A DNA stretch of 64,000 bases, from the NCBI GenBank assembly GCA_018813765.1, contig JAHJBC010000009.1, forward strand, positions 1 to 64,000. The letters run 5' to 3'. This DNA comes from Gammaproteobacteria bacterium. Lineage in GTDB: Bacteria; Pseudomonadota; Gammaproteobacteria; Burkholderiales; Gallionellaceae. The notes beneath the pieces were generated by a model that made no database searches, was not told where the DNA came from, and saw only the letters and a program-made list of their open reading frames with translations. Of this stretch, positions 263 through 52,488 are shown in pieces. How positions within the stretch are numbered: position 1 is the first letter of the stretch; each line of letters opens with the position of its first letter. Position numbers and translations under genes: made by a program.

Positions 263-380
263 CGGCGGAGGCCGGAATCCAGTGTAAGAAAACGGCCTGC
301 GAAGCAGACAAGAAGCTTGTTGCCCCCGCTTGCGCGGGGAATTGTTGATCATCTGGATTCCGGCCTCCGCCGGAATGACG
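261..380 (+). repeat. About 120-bp palindromic repeat, copy 1 of 3
   Basis: The ends are inverted (CCGGCGGAGGCCGGAATCCAG at the left, CTGGATTCCGGCCTCCGCCGG at the right) and the interior holds two smaller hairpins (around GCGAAGC and CCGCTTGCGCGG). Related copies lie at 14779-14909 (opposite orientation) and 49987-50110. No ORF fits inside, so it looks like a non-autonomous MITE-like or structured repeat. It fills most of the gap before the ABC exporter gene. Confidence 0.75.
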
Positions 381-14778: not shown

Positions 14779-14909
14779 GTCATTCCCGCGCAGGCGGGAA
14801 TCCAGCGAAACAAATGTCCCGCGAAGCGGGCAACATTCTAAGAATTGTTTCGACCTGCTTCGCAGGAAGTGTTCGATTGCCTGGATTCCCGCCTGCGCGG
14901 GAATGACGG
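14779..14909 (-). repeat. About 120-bp palindromic repeat, copy 2 of 3
   Basis: GTCATTCCCGCGCAGGCGGG at the left and the matching inverted end at the right, with inner hairpins GTCCCGCGAAGCGGG and CCTGCTTCGCAGG. The order of the inner hairpins is inverted relative to copies 1 and 3. It fills the aldolase-apt gap. Confidence 0.75.
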
Positions 14910-45312: not shown

Positions 45313-45321
45313 AATATAGCA
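45313..45321 (-). promoter_or_regulatory. Extended -10 promoter for lysS
   Basis: On the minus strand the sequence reads TGCTATATT, an extended -10 40 bases before the lysS ATG, with a GCCGC discriminator. No clear -35. It lies in the 68-base gap between jetD and lysS. Confidence 0.5.
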
Positions 45322-45341
45322 CAGCGACGGGGTATTCAGGG

Positions 45342-46520
45342 CTACAGATACCCTTCCTGCTCGCCCTTCTCACCATGTTCCAGCATCCATTCCAGCAATT
45401 CGGAAAACGGGGCGGGGAGTGCGGTTTTTTTGCGCAAGGCGGCCAGTTGCAGCTTGTCGCCTTCGGTCAACTGCTTGCGCACGCGCAAGGCGGCGAGGTC
45501 GCCGACGGACATCCGCCACGGCTGCCAGTCCAGTTTGCGGTCGTGCCACAGTTCGGCGGCTTTTAGCGCGATGGCGATGCCCGCTGGATCGGGATCGCAA
45601 GCGATATAGACGGGCGCCGGGGCGAGATCGAGCAAGCGGCCGACAGCGTCGCGCCACCAGGTCGGCGGGAAGCCGGGCAACCAGATTACGCCTGCGTCCG
45701 CATCGCGTTGTTGGGCGACGCGCTCGAAGCTGGTGCGGTTCTCTACCAGTTGCCAACGGCTGACTGTTCCGGATGCCGCCGTCACGGCTTGCACGGTGGC
45801 GGGTGTGAGTGCGGCAAAATCAGGGCTGGCAGCGAGGTCGATCTGCCCATGTGGCAGGTGCAGCCGCAGTGGCGCGACGATCAGCAACAGCGGCGTATGA
45901 CGCTCGATGCCGAAATCGGCAAGGTCGATCACGGATTCCAGCCAGTTCCATTCGCCCTCGCTGACGGCCTTGGTGTCGCCGCGCGCAAACCAGGCAAAAT
46001 CGCGGCGCGTGCCGCCTTGCTGCTGTGTTTGCCATTCCTGCAATTTGAAAATCAGCTCCTGTCGTGCCAGCGCGCGTTGCACCGGCAATTCGTCAAGGGA
46101 GAGCACGGAAGGGGAGAGAGCCGGGTTATCCAGCGTAAGCAACGCGGCGCGAATCTCCTGCCAGCGCTGCGCATCGTCATCCTTGTCGCGCAGACCGAGG
46201 GCGGCGCGCAGTTGCGGCAGGTGCAGCAGTTCCACCTGTTGCGGCCACCATGCGCCGAGTTTCCAGTTCTCGGTGGTTGCGGCCCAGCCTGCACGCTGCA
46301 GCCAATCGAGCAGCGCATCGGCCATCTGCACGCGGTTCGTTCCCGCATCATTGCGCAGCGTCTCCCAGCGGCTGTTGCCACCGCGCCGCACCCAGCGGGC
46401 AAGCAGTTCGCGCCATTCGGCGGGGAGGGTGTCGAGCGGCTGTGGCGAACAAGTCGCCGTGCGTCGCCGCTTCTGGCAGACGCGGCGATTGTCCAGCGGC
46501 TCGTCGTTCCACTCAGCCAT
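45342..46520 (-). CDS. jetD: Wadjet JetD-like Toprim nuclease subunit (MksG)
   Basis: 392 residues. The N-terminal helical/winged part (to about 190) is DUF3322-like. The C-terminal half is a Toprim domain with a conserved Glu in VENRTSF near residue 257 and the DxD pair in YIACDPDPAGIAIAL near 307, as in topoisomerase VI/DUF2220-type proteins. In Wadjet systems JetD cuts plasmid DNA trapped by the JetABC condensin. Its start overlaps the jetC stop by 8 bases. Last gene of the set, 68 bases before lysS. The family is assigned from motifs and operon context. Confidence 0.8.
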   Translation of the reverse strand: MAEWNDEPLDNRRVCQKRRRTATCSPQPLDTLPAEWRELLARWVRRGGNSRWETLRNDAGTNRVQMADALLDWLQRAGWAATTENWKLGAWWPQQVELLHLPQLRAALGLRDKDDDAQRWQEIRAALLTLDNPALSPSVLSLDELPVQRALARQELIFKLQEWQTQQQGGTRRDFAWFARGDTKAVSEGEWNWLESVIDLADFGIERHTPLLLIVAPLRLHLPHGQIDLAASPDFAALTPATVQAVTAASGTVSRWQLVENRTSFERVAQQRDADAGVIWLPGFPPTWWRDAVGRLLDLAPAPVYIACDPDPAGIAIALKAAELWHDRKLDWQPWRMSVGDLAALRVRKQLTEGDKLQLAALRKKTALPAPFSELLEWMLEHGEKGEQEGYL

Positions 46521-49281
46521 TGCGCTCGCGCACCAACACTTTCACACCCGGCGCCCAGGCATCCGTCGGCTTCTTCTTGAAAGTCACCAGTGTGAGCATC
46601 GACGGGTCGTACACGCCGACGTTGTGGGTGACCGGCGTAGTCAGCAGGTATTGGGCGCGGGTGGCCTTGAGGAATTTTGCCACGCGCTCGATGTTGGCGA
46701 TGTCGAGGTGGGCGAAGGGCTCGTCGATGAACACGAAGCCGCCGGGGCGCGATTCCTCCATCATCAGCGCCACCAGCAGGATCAGCGACTTCATCACCTG
46801 CTGGCCGCCGGAGGCGTCGCCGTCGTTCATGCCCATGAAGCCCTTGTCGTCGAAGTTGAAGCGCACGGCAAGGCCCGCCTGTGCCAGCGACAGGTCGTTG
46901 CTGTCGAGCAGGACCGGTTCGTGTTCGACCTTGATCCCGGCCAGATCGCCCAACACCTTGAGGTTCTTCACGTAGCGGCCGACGGTATGGCGCAGCACGG
47001 CGATGTATTGCTCGCGCGCCGTGTCGGTCTGGCTGCGCGCCATTTCGTTGTCGCGGCGGCGCGTGGCGAGGTCGTTCTCCATGCGCTGGTAGTCGTCCTT
47101 GATCTTGTCGCGCAGGGCAACCACGGAGTCGTCGGTCTCCCATGACTCATCTTTGAATCGAGCTTCGATCTCTTCGATGCGGCGGTCGATGTTGGTGGTG
47201 TCGCGGTATTTTTCGGCGATCTGCTGGTTGGCCGCTTCGTCGCACCAGCCCGCCGGAAACTGCCTGCGGTTGTGGCGCAGGGTTTGCAGGCGGCGGATCT
47301 GTTCTTCGCGAGCGGTACGGTTTTCCTTGCCGGAGATTTCCTTTTCCAGTGTTCCCAGTGCAGACTTGATCTTCTCTTGAGCTATGGAGGATGCGCTGAC
47401 AGCCTTGTCGGCCTGTTCGCGTTCCTGCTGCGCTTGCAAAACGGTGTTGTCGCGGCGGCGCAGCACCAGAGCGTCATACTCTTTGCGTGCCTCGGCGAAC
47501 TCCCCCGCGCGGGCCGCGAGTTGCGCACTGGCGCTGACCCCGGCCAGTTGCGCCTGCTGGTTGCGGATGCGGGAAGTCAGGTCGTCGCGCTGCTCGCGCA
47601 ACGGGGCGATGCTTTTCTCGATGCAACTGCGTTGTTCGCGCAACGCTTCCAAGCGCGCCTTGCCGAAACGAGCCTGATCCTGTGCAGCGTAGCGACCGCC
47701 GCGCCGTTCGCGCAGATAGCCTTGGCGCGTGATCCAGTCTTCGCCGCGCGGCAGCTTGGCACCGGCCACGGCATCTTCCACGCGACGTGTGCGTTCCAGC
47801 GTGCGCAGCAGCCATTCCGGAACCGGCTTGGTGAAGCGCACGACTTCGAGAAGAGAACCCTTGGGCGGCAAACCAGCAGGCATGCAGTCCGGCACGATGA
47901 AGTGCCGGTAGCGCAGCTTCTCGCCCAGCGCCATCGCTGCTTCCGTGTCCTTCTCTTTGGCGAGCAGCACGATGTGCGCGGACGGTGCCAGCACAGCTTC
48001 CACGGCAGCCTGCCAAGAGGGATCGGCGATCTCCACCACGTCGGCCAGCAGGTCATGCGCGATACCGGCCTGCGTCAACGCTTGGCGAAAGGCTGCCACA
48101 TCCAGCGGATCGGCGCGGCGACCTGCCGCGAGGTTCTCCAGCATCTCGTCGAGCTGGCGCAGCTTCTGCTCCTGTTCGGCGATGCGCACCAGCAGGTTGG
48201 CACGCTCGCTTTCCATGTGTTCGATCTCTCGCGCGTCGGCGAGCTTGCCGCCTTCGCTGGCCTGCGCCTGTTGTTCCAGGCGCTTTTGCTGTTCGACGAT
48301 GGTTTCCCAGCGCCCGAGTTCGCGGTTGAGTTCGTTCAGCGCGCGTTGCTGGTTCTGTTCGCTGTCGGTGGCGGCTTGACGGCGCAGTTGCGCGGCTTCC
48401 AGCGCCTGTTGCTGCATCTGCAATTCGAGCTGCAACTCCTTGCGCTCGACGCGTTTGGCGCGCCATTCCTTGCGCATGGATTGCAGGGTGCGCCGTGCGT
48501 TGTCGGTCTCGCGTTGCAGCAGGTAATGCTCAAGGCGCGGGCGCGTTTCCGAAACCAGCGAAGTGCGCTCCTGGTTGAGGCGGTGCCACTCTAGGTAGCG
48601 GTTCACTTTCTGTTCGTGCTTTTCCAGATTGTTGCCCAGCGCTTCCAGTTGGTTTTGCGCCGCATCCAGTTCGCGTCCAGTGTGTTCCTGATGGTGGCGT
48701 GCTTCCTGGTAGCGCTCCAGCACTTCCTTGTCGCCGAACACCTGGAACACCAGGTCGAGCAAGTCCTTGTGCGACAGTTCGCACAGCTTGTCGGTCTGCC
48801 CCTGTTCCAGCGACAGCACGCGGGCGATGGCGGGCGACAATCCGGCGCTGTGCAGGATGCGCTGGTAATCGCGCACGCCGAACTCTTCGCCTTTCTGTTC
48901 GATCTCCTGCAGGCTCACTTCGCCGTCGGCGATCCAGTATTTGCGCGACCAGTCGCCGCCTTTCTTGTCGATGCGGCAGGCGAGCGTGATCTTGTCCTGC
49001 TGGTAGGGCAGGCGGAACGGGCGGTAGCTCGCTCCGGGAGGGCAGCGGTTGTCCACCACACCGCGCAGCCAGCAGAAGTCCTCGCCGTTGCGGCGCACGT
49101 AGCGTTTGTAATCGCGTTTCTTCGAGCATTCCAGCGCCAGCAGCGTGCGCATGGCGTCGAGCAGGGTGGTCTTGCCGGAACCGTTGGGGCCGGAGATGGT
49201 GATGATGGGCGCATCCAGCGGCAGTTTGAAATTGCGCCAGTAGTCCCAGTGGACGGTTTCCAGTTCCATCAACCTAAACAT
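46513..49281 (-). CDS. jetC: Wadjet JetC-like SMC ATPase (MksB)
   Basis: 922 residues, shorter than typical MukB/JetC proteins. Walker A GPNGSGKTT is at 31-39. A first coiled-coil arm runs to about 390. A hinge-like domain (about 395-520; AVEAVLAPSAHIVLLAKE, then RFTKPVPEWLLRTLERT) is followed by the returning arm, an ABC signature SGGQQVMKS near 822 and Walker B GGFVFIDEPFAHLD near 850. It should dimerise and extrude DNA loops with JetA and JetB. It overlaps jetB by 8 bases and jetD by 8, so the operon is tightly packed. Confidence 0.85.
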   Translation of the reverse strand: MFRLMELETVHWDYWRNFKLPLDAPIITISGPNGSGKTTLLDAMRTLLALECSKKRDYKRYVRRNGEDFCWLRGVVDNRCPPGASYRPFRLPYQQDKITLACRIDKKGGDWSRKYWIADGEVSLQEIEQKGEEFGVRDYQRILHSAGLSPAIARVLSLEQGQTDKLCELSHKDLLDLVFQVFGDKEVLERYQEARHHQEHTGRELDAAQNQLEALGNNLEKHEQKVNRYLEWHRLNQERTSLVSETRPRLEHYLLQRETDNARRTLQSMRKEWRAKRVERKELQLELQMQQQALEAAQLRRQAATDSEQNQQRALNELNRELGRWETIVEQQKRLEQQAQASEGGKLADAREIEHMESERANLLVRIAEQEQKLRQLDEMLENLAAGRRADPLDVAAFRQALTQAGIAHDLLADVVEIADPSWQAAVEAVLAPSAHIVLLAKEKDTEAAMALGEKLRYRHFIVPDCMPAGLPPKGSLLEVVRFTKPVPEWLLRTLERTRRVEDAVAGAKLPRGEDWITRQGYLRERRGGRYAAQDQARFGKARLEALREQRSCIEKSIAPLREQRDDLTSRIRNQQAQLAGVSASAQLAARAGEFAEARKEYDALVLRRRDNTVLQAQQEREQADKAVSASSIAQEKIKSALGTLEKEISGKENRTAREEQIRRLQTLRHNRRQFPAGWCDEAANQQIAEKYRDTTNIDRRIEEIEARFKDESWETDDSVVALRDKIKDDYQRMENDLATRRRDNEMARSQTDTAREQYIAVLRHTVGRYVKNLKVLGDLAGIKVEHEPVLLDSNDLSLAQAGLAVRFNFDDKGFMGMNDGDASGGQQVMKSLILLVALMMEESRPGGFVFIDEPFAHLDIANIERVAKFLKATRAQYLLTTPVTHNVGVYDPSMLTLVTFKKKPTDAWAPGVKVLVRERNG

Positions 49282-49948
49282 TGTGCAGCTCCCCCAGCGT
49301 TACATCGCGCAATATGCCGCGTTCCTTCAACAGGTCGGACAAGGCGCCGTTGAGAATGCGCGGCGCCATTTCGGCGTAATCGAAGGCGAGGTCGAGCAGC
49401 GGGCCTTCGTGGATGACCTTGTTCTTGCGCTCGATGAAACCGAGGCGCGACAACTGCGGCAGCGCGAACTGCTGCAGGCGCGCCTTGCCGCCTAACAATT
49501 TGCCGTAGTCTTCCAGCAGCAGATTCTCAGCGATGCCGCGCGAGGCTTCGTGCGCCAGCGGCGTGAGCTTTACGGTCTCGAACATCTCGGTTTGCTCTTC
49601 CTGCTGCGTCGCTTCGCCCGATAACTGGCGTTCGCGTTTGGGCAAAATGATCAGCGCCCACAGGATCACCAGCAGCGCCACGGCATCCTTGGGCAGGCCG
49701 AGGTTGCTGGATTGCCAGGTGTCGTTCTGTTCGAACACGGCGCTTTCGCATTCGCGCGTGAGGGCAATGCCGACATGGGCGGAGAAGGGGTGGGCCAGCA
49801 GGCGCAGACCGCTGGCGGCGAGGCGCTGTTCCACTTCGTCGCGGAAACCGGCATCGACCAGCAGGCGGCGCACTTCCTTGTCTTCGCGCGGCAGGTAGCG
49901 CAGCGCCAGCAGGCGTGCGATCAGGCGGGCGGCGTGGTCCTGGTTCAT
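49274..49948 (-). CDS. jetB: Wadjet JetB-like KITE subunit (MksE)
   Basis: 224 residues, mostly winged-helix in character and without enzyme motifs, as expected for the MukE/MksE-type subunit that links kleisin and SMC heads. Hydrophobic and charged helices such as AVALLVILWALIILPKRE resemble the DUF4194/MksE block. A perfect Shine-Dalgarno (AAGGAG) precedes the ATG, giving it strong independent translation after the repeat that separates it from jetA. Assignment rests mainly on position between kleisin-like and SMC-like genes. Confidence 0.78.
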   Translation of the reverse strand: MNQDHAARLIARLLALRYLPREDKEVRRLLVDAGFRDEVEQRLAASGLRLLAHPFSAHVGIALTRECESAVFEQNDTWQSSNLGLPKDAVALLVILWALIILPKRERQLSGEATQQEEQTEMFETVKLTPLAHEASRGIAENLLLEDYGKLLGGKARLQQFALPQLSRLGFIERKNKVIHEGPLLDLAFDYAEMAPRILNGALSDLLKERGILRDVTLGELHNV

Positions 49949-49986
49949 TCAGACTCCTTATTTCTAATCGAGCAATTCATTCGATT

Positions 49987-50110
49987 GTCATTCCGGCGCA
50001 GGCCGGAATCCAGTCAATAAAAACAGGCTGCGAAGCAGACCAAAAAGAATTGGTCTCGCTTGCGCGAGAAATATTCAATCATCTGGATTCCGGCCTGCGC
50101 CGGAATGACG
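49987..50110 (+). repeat. About 120-bp palindromic repeat, copy 3 of 3, between jetA and jetB
   Basis: GTCATTCCGGCGCAGGCCGG at the left, an inverted end at the right (CCGGCCTGCGCCGGAATGAC), and inner hairpins GCTGCGAAGCAG and TCGCTTGCGCGA. It fills the 175-base jetA-jetB gap, the only loose junction in that operon. Confidence 0.8.
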
Positions 50111-50123
50111 TCGTTTTGAAGCG

Positions 50124-51380
50124 TTAGCCAGATTGGGGCTCGATGTGGCCATCGCTCATCGCGGCGATCTCATCTCGTCCTATGGTTTTCAGTTCCAGGC
50201 TTTCATTCCAGCGCAGTTGCAGCGGCAGTGTAGCCAAGGGAGCCAGTTCGGGATCGACGTTCTGCTCGCCGAGGAAAGACAGCAGCGACAGGCGATAAGA
50301 GGCATCGCTGAAGTTGCCGCCGACGATGCCATCGGCGAGGTTCATCGGCTCTTCCAGGCCGGACAGCAGGCGCGTCAGCGCGGCCAGTTGATACGGCGGC
50401 TCATGCTCGACGTCATCCACGTATTCGACTTCGGCGGGCGCGGGCATGGCGGAGACGTGGCGGTTGGGTTGTTCGCGCGCAACGAACTCCTCGGTGTTAT
50501 CCAGCATCACGTCGGGCAGTATGAAGGTGCATTCCGGCGTGATCGAAAGCTGCGCGGCGGCGAGCCCGACCAGTTCGTCCACGTTGCGCTGCTTGAGCCA
50601 GGCGGCAAGTTCTGAAGAGCTGAGTCCGCCATGCGACAGGTGCACCTGCTGGCGCGAGATTTCGGCCAGTTCGCGCTGGAACACCGACGACATGCGCATG
50701 ATGCGCGACTGGCGCGAACCGATCTCCTGCGCCAGCCGCCAGCTCGCATCATCGGCAAAACCATCGGCGGAGAGGTTGCGCAACACTTCGTTGGCTTTTT
50801 CCATCCACTGCCACACCGAGGCCAGTTTGCTTTGCGCGGCGCGCAGGCGGAATTCGGAGCCGGAGGCGACGGCTTGCGAGAACTCTTCTTCCAGTTCGGC
50901 CAGCCGCGCCAGCAGGTGTGCCAGCGCTTCCGGGGACAGCTTGCCGACGGCGGCGCCTGCGGCAATCTGCGCGGCGAAGAATTCGCCGTCCTGTTCGGGG
51001 CTGAACGACAGCAGGCTGGACAGGGCGGAAAGCACCATGCGACCGGCAGAAGATATCTGGTAAACGTGACGTTCGGCATCCCACAGCAGCAACTCGTGCT
51101 CGCGCAAACGACCGAGCACTGTGTTGAGCTTGGACTGGTTGATGAAGGCGAAGTGACTTTGCAGGTCGCGCGGCGACCATTCCGGCGCACTGGCGCGCAA
51201 GCCGATCTCGCGCAGCACCATCAGGCGCACCATCACCTCGTCGTCGCCGCCGCGGAACAGCGCGATCATTGCGCCGATCAGCGGTTTGGCTTCAAACAGG
51301 GGAAAGAATTGCGGCACATCGGCGGGCTCGACGCCGTCGACGAAGAACTCGGAGAGTCCTTTGTTTTCCTCCACGGACAT
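50124..51380 (-). CDS. jetA: Wadjet JetA-like kleisin subunit (MksF)
   Basis: 418 residues. The N-terminal winged-helix region (about 15-120) includes WSPRDLQSHFAFINQSKLN. A helical middle holds LLARLAELEEEFSQAV and VWQWMEKANEVLRNLS. The C-terminal winged-helix part is more acidic. This is the layout of MukF/MksF kleisins that bridge the SMC heads. The ATG lies 3 bases after the prfB stop, with AAGG within the prfB end acting as a possible Shine-Dalgarno, so it is probably read through from prfB. First gene of the four-gene system. Confidence 0.78.
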   Translation of the reverse strand: MSVEENKGLSEFFVDGVEPADVPQFFPLFEAKPLIGAMIALFRGGDDEVMVRLMVLREIGLRASAPEWSPRDLQSHFAFINQSKLNTVLGRLREHELLLWDAERHVYQISSAGRMVLSALSSLLSFSPEQDGEFFAAQIAAGAAVGKLSPEALAHLLARLAELEEEFSQAVASGSEFRLRAAQSKLASVWQWMEKANEVLRNLSADGFADDASWRLAQEIGSRQSRIMRMSSVFQRELAEISRQQVHLSHGGLSSSELAAWLKQRNVDELVGLAAAQLSITPECTFILPDVMLDNTEEFVAREQPNRHVSAMPAPAEVEYVDDVEHEPPYQLAALTRLLSGLEEPMNLADGIVGGNFSDASYRLSLLSFLGEQNVDPELAPLATLPLQLRWNESLELKTIGRDEIAAMSDGHIEPQSG

Positions 51381-51383
51381 CGA

Positions 51384-52488
51384 TTACACGCCTTGCTTCA
51401 GGCTGGCCTCGATAAAGGGATCGAGATCGCCGTCGAGCACCTTTTGCGTATTGGAGATCTCGACGTTGGTGCGCAGGTCCTTGATGCGCGACTGGTCGAG
51501 CACGTAGGAGCGGATCTGGTGGCCCCAGCCCACGTCGGACTTGGTGGCTTCCAGCTTGTCGGCCTCGGCCCGGCGTTTGCGCATCTCTTCTTCGTACATG
51601 CGCGATTTCAGCATGGACATGGCTTCGGCGCGGTTCTTGTGCTGCGAGCGGTCGTTCTGGCACTGCACCACGATGCCGGTCGGGATGTGGGTGATGCGGA
51701 TCGCCGAGTCGGTCTTGTTGATGTGCTGGCCGCCCGCACCGCTTGCGCGGAAAGTGTCGATGCGCAGGTCGGCAGGATTGATGTCGATCTCGATCGAGTC
51801 GTCCACTTCCGGGTAGACGAACAGGCTGGCGAAGGAGGTGTGGCGGCCACCCGAGGAATCGAACGGCGACTTGCGCACCAGGCGGTGCACACCGGTCTCG
51901 CTACGCAGGTGGCCGTAGGCGTATTCGCCCTCGACCTTGAGCGAGGCGCTGCGGATGCCTGCCACGTCACCCGCCGTTTCTTCCAGCACTTCGACCTTGA
52001 AGCCCTTGCGTTCGCAATATTTCAGGTATTGGCGCAACAGCATCGAGGCCCAGTCGCAAGCCTCGGTGCCGCCGGCGCCGGCCTGGATGTCGATGAAGCA
52101 GTTGTTGGGGTCGGCCGGATTGGAGAACATGCGGCGGAATTCGAGCGCGGCGACGCGCTGCTCGATGTCCTGTACGTCCTCGGCGATGCTCAACAGGCTG
52201 TCGTCGTCGTTCTCGGCCTGCGCCATCTCGAACAGTTCGGCGGCATCGTCGAGATTCTGGGTGATGCTGGTGAGGCCGAGCACCACGTCTTCCAGCGATT
52301 TGCGTTCGCGGCCCAGGTCCTGGGCGCGCTTCGCATCGTTCCAGATGGCGGGATCTTCGGCGAGCTGGTTGACTTCGGCTAAACGGTCCTGCTTGCCATC
52401 GAAGTCAAAGAAACCTCCGTAATTCGTTGCTGCGGTTGCGCAAGTCTTGCAGGGAATTGGAGAGGGCGTTGAGTTGTTCGGCTTCCAT
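51384..52488 (-). CDS. prfB: Peptide chain release factor 2, with programmed +1 frameshift
   Basis: Releases peptides at UGA and UAA. Translation starts at ATG 52488 ([16 protein letters not shown]), reaches the in-frame TGA at 52405-52407 after 27 residues, shifts +1 at CTT-TGA-C, and continues to TAA 51384-51386, about 367 residues in all. The second frame carries SPF (RKSPFDSSG), the anticodon-mimic tripeptide, and GGQ ([10 protein letters not shown]), the catalytic motif. The gene therefore appears as two open frames but is intact. jetA follows at once; lysS, its usual neighbour, is 6 kb downstream. Confidence 0.95.
52404..52418 (-). promoter_or_regulatory. prfB programmed frameshift site
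   Basis: On the minus strand it reads GGAGGTTTCTTTGAC. The internal Shine-Dalgarno GGAGG (52414-52418) precedes the slippery CTT and the in-frame TGA. This is the standard autoregulatory site: low RF2 promotes the +1 shift that makes more RF2. Confidence 0.95.

Follow-up and report, generated by a model that had tools for sequence, protein, structure and literature searches.

The MksBEF complex of Pseudomonas aeruginosa is a condensin that has no nuclease. For Wadjet (JetABCD), the mechanism described in two sources (PMC10586767 and PMC10123090) is loop extrusion followed by cleavage of circular DNA by JetD, in which the first of these also describes a Toprim domain whose acidic residues are conserved. 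The lineage described here bears on how such plasmid-killing SMC (structural maintenance of chromosomes) complexes relate to chromosomal condensins. The DNA under study, referred to as the window, comprises 64,000 nucleotides (nt) of contig JAHJBC010000009.1 from a member of the Gallionellaceae, in which a first-pass annotation had placed a complete Wadjet/MksBEFG-like system, jetA-jetB-jetC-jetD, between prfB and lysS. It appears likely that the SMC complex specified by this operon is a divergent one of the Wadjet/MksBEFG kind, that the operon has occupied the prfB-lysS junction either for a long time or repeatedly and that jetD is a removable part of it. The operon probably guards the cell against plasmids. 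The observed basis consists of SMC ATPase motifs, the fold of the JetB model, the family and acidic residues of JetD, the gene order and purifying selection.

The open reading frames (ORFs) of the window confirmed the order prfB, jetA-jetB-jetC-jetD, lysS on the minus strand, with the four jet genes forming a contiguous array in one orientation and jetA starting 3 bases past the prfB stop (TAA-TCG-ATG), as had been annotated. The genes are jetA (51380-50124; 418 amino acids, from an ORF call, for a predicted kleisin-like subunit), jetB (49948-49274; 224 amino acids), jetC (49281-46513; 922 amino acids) and jetD (46520-45342; 392 amino acids), and overlaps of 8 nt are found at both jetB/jetC and jetC/jetD. 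Relatives that carry the same gene order, with ratios of nonsynonymous to synonymous substitution (dN/dS) far below 1, show these ORFs to be real genes.

By its sequence, JetC is an intact SMC ATPase. The Walker A (GPNGSGKT, residues 31-38), signature (SGGQQ, 824-828) and FIDEP (851-855) motifs noted in the first-pass annotation were all found and are invariant across 10 sequences, while the hinge-like domain claimed with them corresponds to a weak SMC_hinge match (409-469, E 0.0033, under Pfam's cut-off). JetC matched Pfam SMC_N (2.8e-17) and, among the defense-system models of PADLOC-DB 2.0.0, JetC1 (1.2e-22). An hhalign comparison with type I-like JetC gave 99.1% (E 3.9e-19) over 853 columns. 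Searched against the PDB, the JetC profile retrieved generic SMC, Rad50 and P-loop chains, and in a plasmid collection the protein matched two partial Variovorax records, which covered 52% and 48% of the query at roughly 39% identity. Separately, ten JetC proteins of one family (f8, L230-L239) were seen to deviate from the exact Walker A string GPNGSGKT.

The JetB model (predicted local distance difference test score, pLDDT, 74; predicted template modeling score, pTM, 0.66) is KITE-like, with a predicted fold nearest to Wadjet JetB. The top three Foldseek matches were chains of Wadjet JetABC (8dk1_F, 1.5e-4; 8as8_C, 2.6e-4; 8dk1_E, 4.7e-4), followed among the PDB ranks by NSE1 and ScpAB, with MukE-MukF at rank 10. 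By sequence, no family match was obtained for the window JetB, and profile searches of the PDB with JetB and with JetA returned nothing useful. The JetA model (pLDDT 77, pTM 0.37) has an N-terminal winged helix, long helices, a low-confidence linker and a C-terminal winged domain, an outline that fits a MukF/MksF-type kleisin. JetA, kleisin-like in outline only, may be the kleisin subunit.

JetD is predicted to be a Toprim nuclease-like protein with acidic residues of the catalytic type. It matched Pfam DUF2399 over the cut-off (4.4e-7) and PADLOC JetD1 (3.6e-16), and residues E260, D309xD311 and E387-Q-E389 are invariant in 40 sequences, among them the Toprim glutamate and DxD reported in the first-pass annotation. 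This pattern fits a Toprim nuclease. No useful match was obtained by sequence in the profile search of the PDB. The possibility that jetD is decaying in the window was rejected, the gene being intact with dN/dS of 0.17-0.23 against G008, G013 and G030.

In the proposed mechanism, JetC dimers would be bridged by JetA, with JetB sitting on the bridge, and the resulting JetABC complex, powered by ATP hydrolysis, would extrude DNA loops. If the circle is small, the motor would exhaust the DNA, the JetD Toprim nuclease would then cut, and the window strain would in this way restrict plasmids.

The state of the prfB-lysS junction was compared across 34 genomes of the genus. JetC matched in 13 of these, from which G006 was set aside as a probable coiled-coil match (29% identity, E 5.4e-4), leaving 12 occupied junctions, 18 empty ones and 4 unassigned (G002, G012, G019, G027). 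In nine genomes the operon lies between prfB and lysS on one contig (G000, G004, G008, G013, G021, G024, G029, G030, G033); in G028 it is divided between two contigs, and in G003 and G023 the lysS side alone is visible. In the 18 empty junctions, and in G035 of the same family, the prfB stop lies 9-15 nt from the lysS start (the contig of G016 contains prfB in part), so that the operon is not present in all relatives, the finding that the first-pass annotation had named as refuting its insertion. The prfB nearest to that of the window (97%) belongs to G007, whose junction is empty. Occupancy changed at least 6 times on the prfB tree (27 rows) and at least 5 times on the lysS tree (31 rows), with 5 and 4 of these changes, respectively, forced by well-supported branches. 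In G030, jetB and jetC are 89-92% identical to those of the window, as against 75% for prfB and 85% for lysS, which suggests that cassettes have been exchanged between strains. Within the genus, the jet cassette is likely to be one that is lost, exchanged and regained. In genus pairs dN/dS of jetA, jetB and jetC was 0.005-0.184. As a side observation, VapBC-like pairs were recognized by reading between jetD and lysS in L061, L081, L082 and L089 and between prfB and jetA in L032; a PIN domain was confirmed by Pfam in two cases only, L061 and an L032 gene that is distinct from the pair and lies close to lysS.

The nuclease gene is less constant than the rest. Six of the 12 occupied genus junctions contain jetD (G000, G008, G013, G021, G030, G033), and from the other six it is missing (G003, G004, G023, G024, G028, G029). 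When a 40-row JetD profile was used to search the rest of the genomes, no match was found in G003, G004, G023, G028 or G029; it matched 2 of the 11 genomes searched, namely that of the window and G024, where jetD is in a second copy. G004 and G029 are single-contig assemblies at least 99% complete, with G003 at 89% and G023 at 69%. In G024 a short stretch before lysS matches the 3' end of jetD of relatives, a remnant that speaks for loss by deletion. The jetD-less pair G004-G029 gave dN/dS of 0.10 for jetA, 0.055 for jetB and 0.175 for jetC, none of which falls outside the values of the other pairs. jetD is thus a dispensable module, often missing while jetABC stays under selection. At the place of jetD in G003, between jetC and lysS (L033:2343-6704), a gene for a 1454-amino-acid LRR-Roc-COR-glycosyltransferase "conflict system" protein was noted.

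A number of these and further results weigh against assignment to Wadjet/MksBEFG. An hhalign comparison of JetC with canonical Smc gave 99.4% (E 7.4e-22) over 522 columns, so that JetC appears about as close by sequence to canonical Smc as to type I-like JetC; its score against the canonical Smc model TIGR02168 (87 bits) is below the threshold of 567. The same comparison of JetA, JetB and JetD with the main type I-like set gave values below 1% in every case. In a control alignment of two systems with JetC1-like proteins, JetA reached 0.5%, JetB 0.3% and JetD 89.7%. The failures of JetA and JetB therefore say little, since the control pair fails as well, whereas that of JetD (0.4%) reflects a real distance, since its control succeeds; the window JetD aligned with that of L143 at 88.1%. 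No kleisin match was obtained for JetA by sequence or by fold, the pTM of the model being only 0.37. When 13 JetA members were searched at E up to 1, no PADLOC Jet model matched and only three unrelated weak families were returned. JetB1 matched one of 10 JetB members (E 0.0098), not that of the window. Finally, jetABC cannot owe its preservation to plasmid cutting in every strain, given the absence of jetD from half of the occupied genus junctions. The annotation of a complete Wadjet consequently stands in part: an SMC ATPase, a KITE-like subunit and a Toprim-nuclease-like protein are present in Wadjet order, JetC1 and JetD1 were matched and the JetB fold is nearest to that of Wadjet, but JetA and the window JetB escape the Jet models, JetA has no kleisin match and relatives often lack the nuclease. 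That the PADLOC Wadjet models miss these two subunits points to a divergent Wadjet/MksBEFG-like lineage.

Outside the genus, a JetC alignment scan yielded 244 coding stretches, of which the best 80 were kept as wider-family loci, so that the counts favor near relatives. prfB lies upstream of jetA on the same strand in 47 of 61 such loci having at least 1.5 kb of upstream sequence, down to about 44% JetC identity; the distance between them is at most 60 nt in 22 of the 61 and at most 1.2 kb in 39. The labels of prfB-linked loci were Gallionellaceae, Thiobacillaceae, Methylophilaceae, Sulfuricellaceae, Zoogloeaceae, Rhodocyclaceae and Sterolibacteriaceae. The tie to prfB, which had been annotated as unusual, is thus common in this lineage. 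No description of it was found among titles and abstract beginnings of open-access literature, a coverage that most subscription papers and preprints fall outside. A more even sample was provided by 399 genomes of the order with completeness of at least 90%, 64 of which carried the JetC family. In the 63 examined besides that of the window, the gene within 2.1 kb upstream of jetA was obgE in 33, proA in 4, prfB in 4 (one of these, L183, a relic tail only) and none of these in 22; the commonest neighbor here is obgE, not prfB. jetD was found within the stretch around the locus in 0 of the 33 obgE, all 4 proA, 2 of the 4 prfB and 5 of the 22 remaining loci.

Several copies appear to have been relocated. 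In the second copy of G024 (L028), a short ORF before jetA matches the last 73 residues of prfB, and a homologous prfB tail without a start codon occurs in G332 (L183), which belongs to another family. In a Gallionella copy (L091), lying between purA-like and ribonuclease R-like genes by reading, 19 residues weakly resemble prfB (E 0.015). These prfB 3' pieces, two clear and one weak, indicate that cassettes left prfB and took a piece of it along. A role for the relocated tail as a working leader protein was rejected, as the start codon is lost in G332 and L091 keeps a short, weak piece. By reading, transposase-like ORFs flank L028, and an integrase-like ORF lies beyond lysS in L131.

A further group of order genomes concerns chromosome organization. 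G040, G341 and G407 (L034, L184, L185) belong to one genus, are 99-100% complete (two being single-contig) and carry an obgE-linked JetABC with no jetD nearby. No Smc match was found at E 1e-60 in these three, as against matches in the other 29 of 32 genomes, and a separate search found no ScpB match in them, as against the other 12 of 15; these searches covered neither MukB nor ScpA, and the Smc search scored part of the first-look candidates (15 per genome, 31 for G040). An Smc match was likewise absent from the genome in which L089 lies, and the Smc of G274 is split in two pieces. Among the G040/G341/G407 pairs jetABC is under strong purifying selection, with dN/dS of 0.014-0.039; of three other order pairs, two were higher (0.08-0.30) and one, barely diverged, was as low (0.011-0.037). 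This last pair is L192-L193, and G217, one of its two genomes, has an Smc match, so that low dN/dS is not peculiar to the genus of G040. Canonical Smc and ScpB are both present in the window genome. In a separate observation, an rpoB family search gave no candidate in the window genome (99.8% complete) and no match in 8 of 29 others, possibly owing to a search artefact or to a stretch missing from the sequence searched.

With jetD dispensable and a JetABC genus lacking Smc and ScpB matches, the lineage may serve both immunity and chromosome organization. That the operon is mainly an auxiliary chromosomal condensin of the MksBEF type, with JetD an optional effector that strains add or drop, is rather doubtful, even though several results point that way: jetD is absent from half of the occupied genus junctions, from the remainder of five genomes and from the surroundings of every obgE-linked order locus, jetABC remains under purifying selection in its absence, three genomes have no Smc or ScpB match, and P. 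aeruginosa MksBEF is reported in PMC7485682 to act in chromosome segregation. The window genome, however, has canonical Smc and ScpB and keeps an intact jetD, the presence of the operon in 12 of 34 genus genomes is too patchy for an essential condensin, and the result for the Smc-less genus covers Smc and ScpB, with no search made for MukB. A more elaborate form, offered as an unlikely and speculative one, is that a single SMC lineage alternates, JetABCD behind prfB or proA restricting plasmids and the jetD-free, obgE-linked JetABC being a chromosomal condensin that replaces Smc-ScpAB in the genus of G040, G341 and G407. It is very improbable that a RecN/Rad50-type repair operon was misread as Wadjet: in NCBIfam JetC scored best against SMC_prok_B, far short of the cut-off of that model, and its Pfam matches are to generic SMC_N/AAA, but the KITE-like fold of JetB is nearest to Wadjet JetB, JetD belongs to DUF2399 with its best PADLOC matches to JetD1, and the genes follow the jetA-B-C-D order.

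The history of the locus can likewise be read in more than one way. On the JetC tree (74 rows; a quick method, with long branches flagged), two sets are mainly prfB-linked, one of 39 rows (31 prfB) and one of 22 rows (18 prfB). One possibility, held with low confidence, is that cassettes were captured repeatedly at the prfB 3' end, related ones entering it independently in several families, in place of a single ancestral insertion and later losses. As rooted in the drawing, the tree separates the two prfB-linked clades by obgE, proA and Geobacter copies, and it requires 12 label changes, 11 of them forced by well-supported branches; VapBC-like pairs, an AAA ATPase, PIN, SNF2 and LRR-Roc-COR genes also gather in the junction, cassettes with prfB pieces have moved, and the jetB and jetC of G030 resemble those of the window far more than its prfB does. 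Against this, a single origin of the prfB linkage was not rejected (approximately unbiased test, p-AU 0.384, 61 rows against 13, for a clade of prfB-linked rows and those nested among them, whose definition was in part made with the tree already in view). Distances of JetC also correlate with those of prfB (Spearman 0.63 for 39 loci and 0.55 for 24, with 0 of 999 permutations as high in each, a test inflated by shared ancestry), and JetC clades largely follow bacterial families, the exceptions being Gallionellaceae that surround Thiobacillaceae, four Rhodocyclaceae in the larger set and two metagenome-assembled genome labels that look misplaced. The reading preferred here is a long-standing or recurring residence and not a one-off insertion; in other lineages the cassette sits behind obgE or proA. 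With prfB upstream in 47 of 61 loci, correlated distances and one origin not rejected, the single arrival proposed in the first-pass annotation was abandoned.

The host genes and short elements of the junction bear on expression. Upstream lies prfB (release factor 2, RF2; 51384..52488, stop 51386-51384, minus strand; TIGR00020, 5e-140), whose ORF starts at 52488 and whose reading crosses a programmed +1 frameshift site, GGAGGTTTCTTTGAC, recognized as a sequence pattern at 52404..52418 (minus strand). The same type of pattern was found in 45 of 46 related loci having jetA and enough prfB sequence. From the 3-nt spacing, it is plausible that the jet operon shares the prfB transcript. Under the speculative reading of a lineage that alternates between immunity and housekeeping, the dosage of JetABC(D) may depend in part on its expression from translation-gene operons, in the case of prfB behind an RF2 frameshift autoregulator. 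Downstream lies lysS (45273-43771, minus strand; NF001756, 2.3e-221), preceded by a TGTGCTATATT motif (45313..45323, minus strand) that may be an extended -10 element and, judged from the sequence, a possible separate promoter for lysS. The motif was present in 10 of the 10 occupied genus junctions among those listed and, among 19 wider loci listed, in L033 and L182 but not in the other 17, which confines it to the genus and its family. A strict sigma-70 scan did not call it as a promoter, giving one promoter-like site in the region as against a mean of 0.7 in shuffles. In the window strain jetA and jetB, unlike the other jet genes, lie 175 nt apart and so lack a tight junction, a point absent from the first-pass annotation; in the close relative G008 there is no gap and the two overlap. 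The gap holds an inverted pair of a repetitive extragenic palindromic (REP)-like repeat, GGATTCCGGCCTGCGCCGGAATGAC (49987..50109, strandless; repeat search), which had 5 matches in the window as against 0.00 expected in shuffles. REP-like palindromic repeats were noted at window positions 355-379, 14779-14907 and 49987-50109, the inverted pair at the last splitting jetA from jetB.

As some related strains of the lineage have the nuclease and others lack it, and a genus apparently without Smc and ScpB keeps the motor, the gain and loss of an immune function becomes directly testable, and it is a lineage whose JetA is missed, and whose JetB is nearly always missed, by current defense-system models. 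Compared with Smc-ScpAB, JetC is likewise SMC-type, with a head and a hinge-like region, but the operon architecture is different, and a full-length Smc and a ScpB are encoded elsewhere in the window genome. The nuclease-free MksBEF is resembled, by gene set, by the three-gene jetABC forms that are common in the wider family, although the window copy retains jetD. With Wadjet type I/MksBEFG the locus shares the order of kleisin-like, KITE-like, SMC and Toprim nuclease-like genes with short overlaps, the JetB fold and the JetC and JetD families. From this system the window locus differs in a JetA that neither PADLOC nor Pfam recognizes, in a JetC of 922 amino acids as against 1,123-1,234 in the type I-like loci compared, and in belonging to a lineage that sits behind housekeeping genes and whose members often lack jetD.

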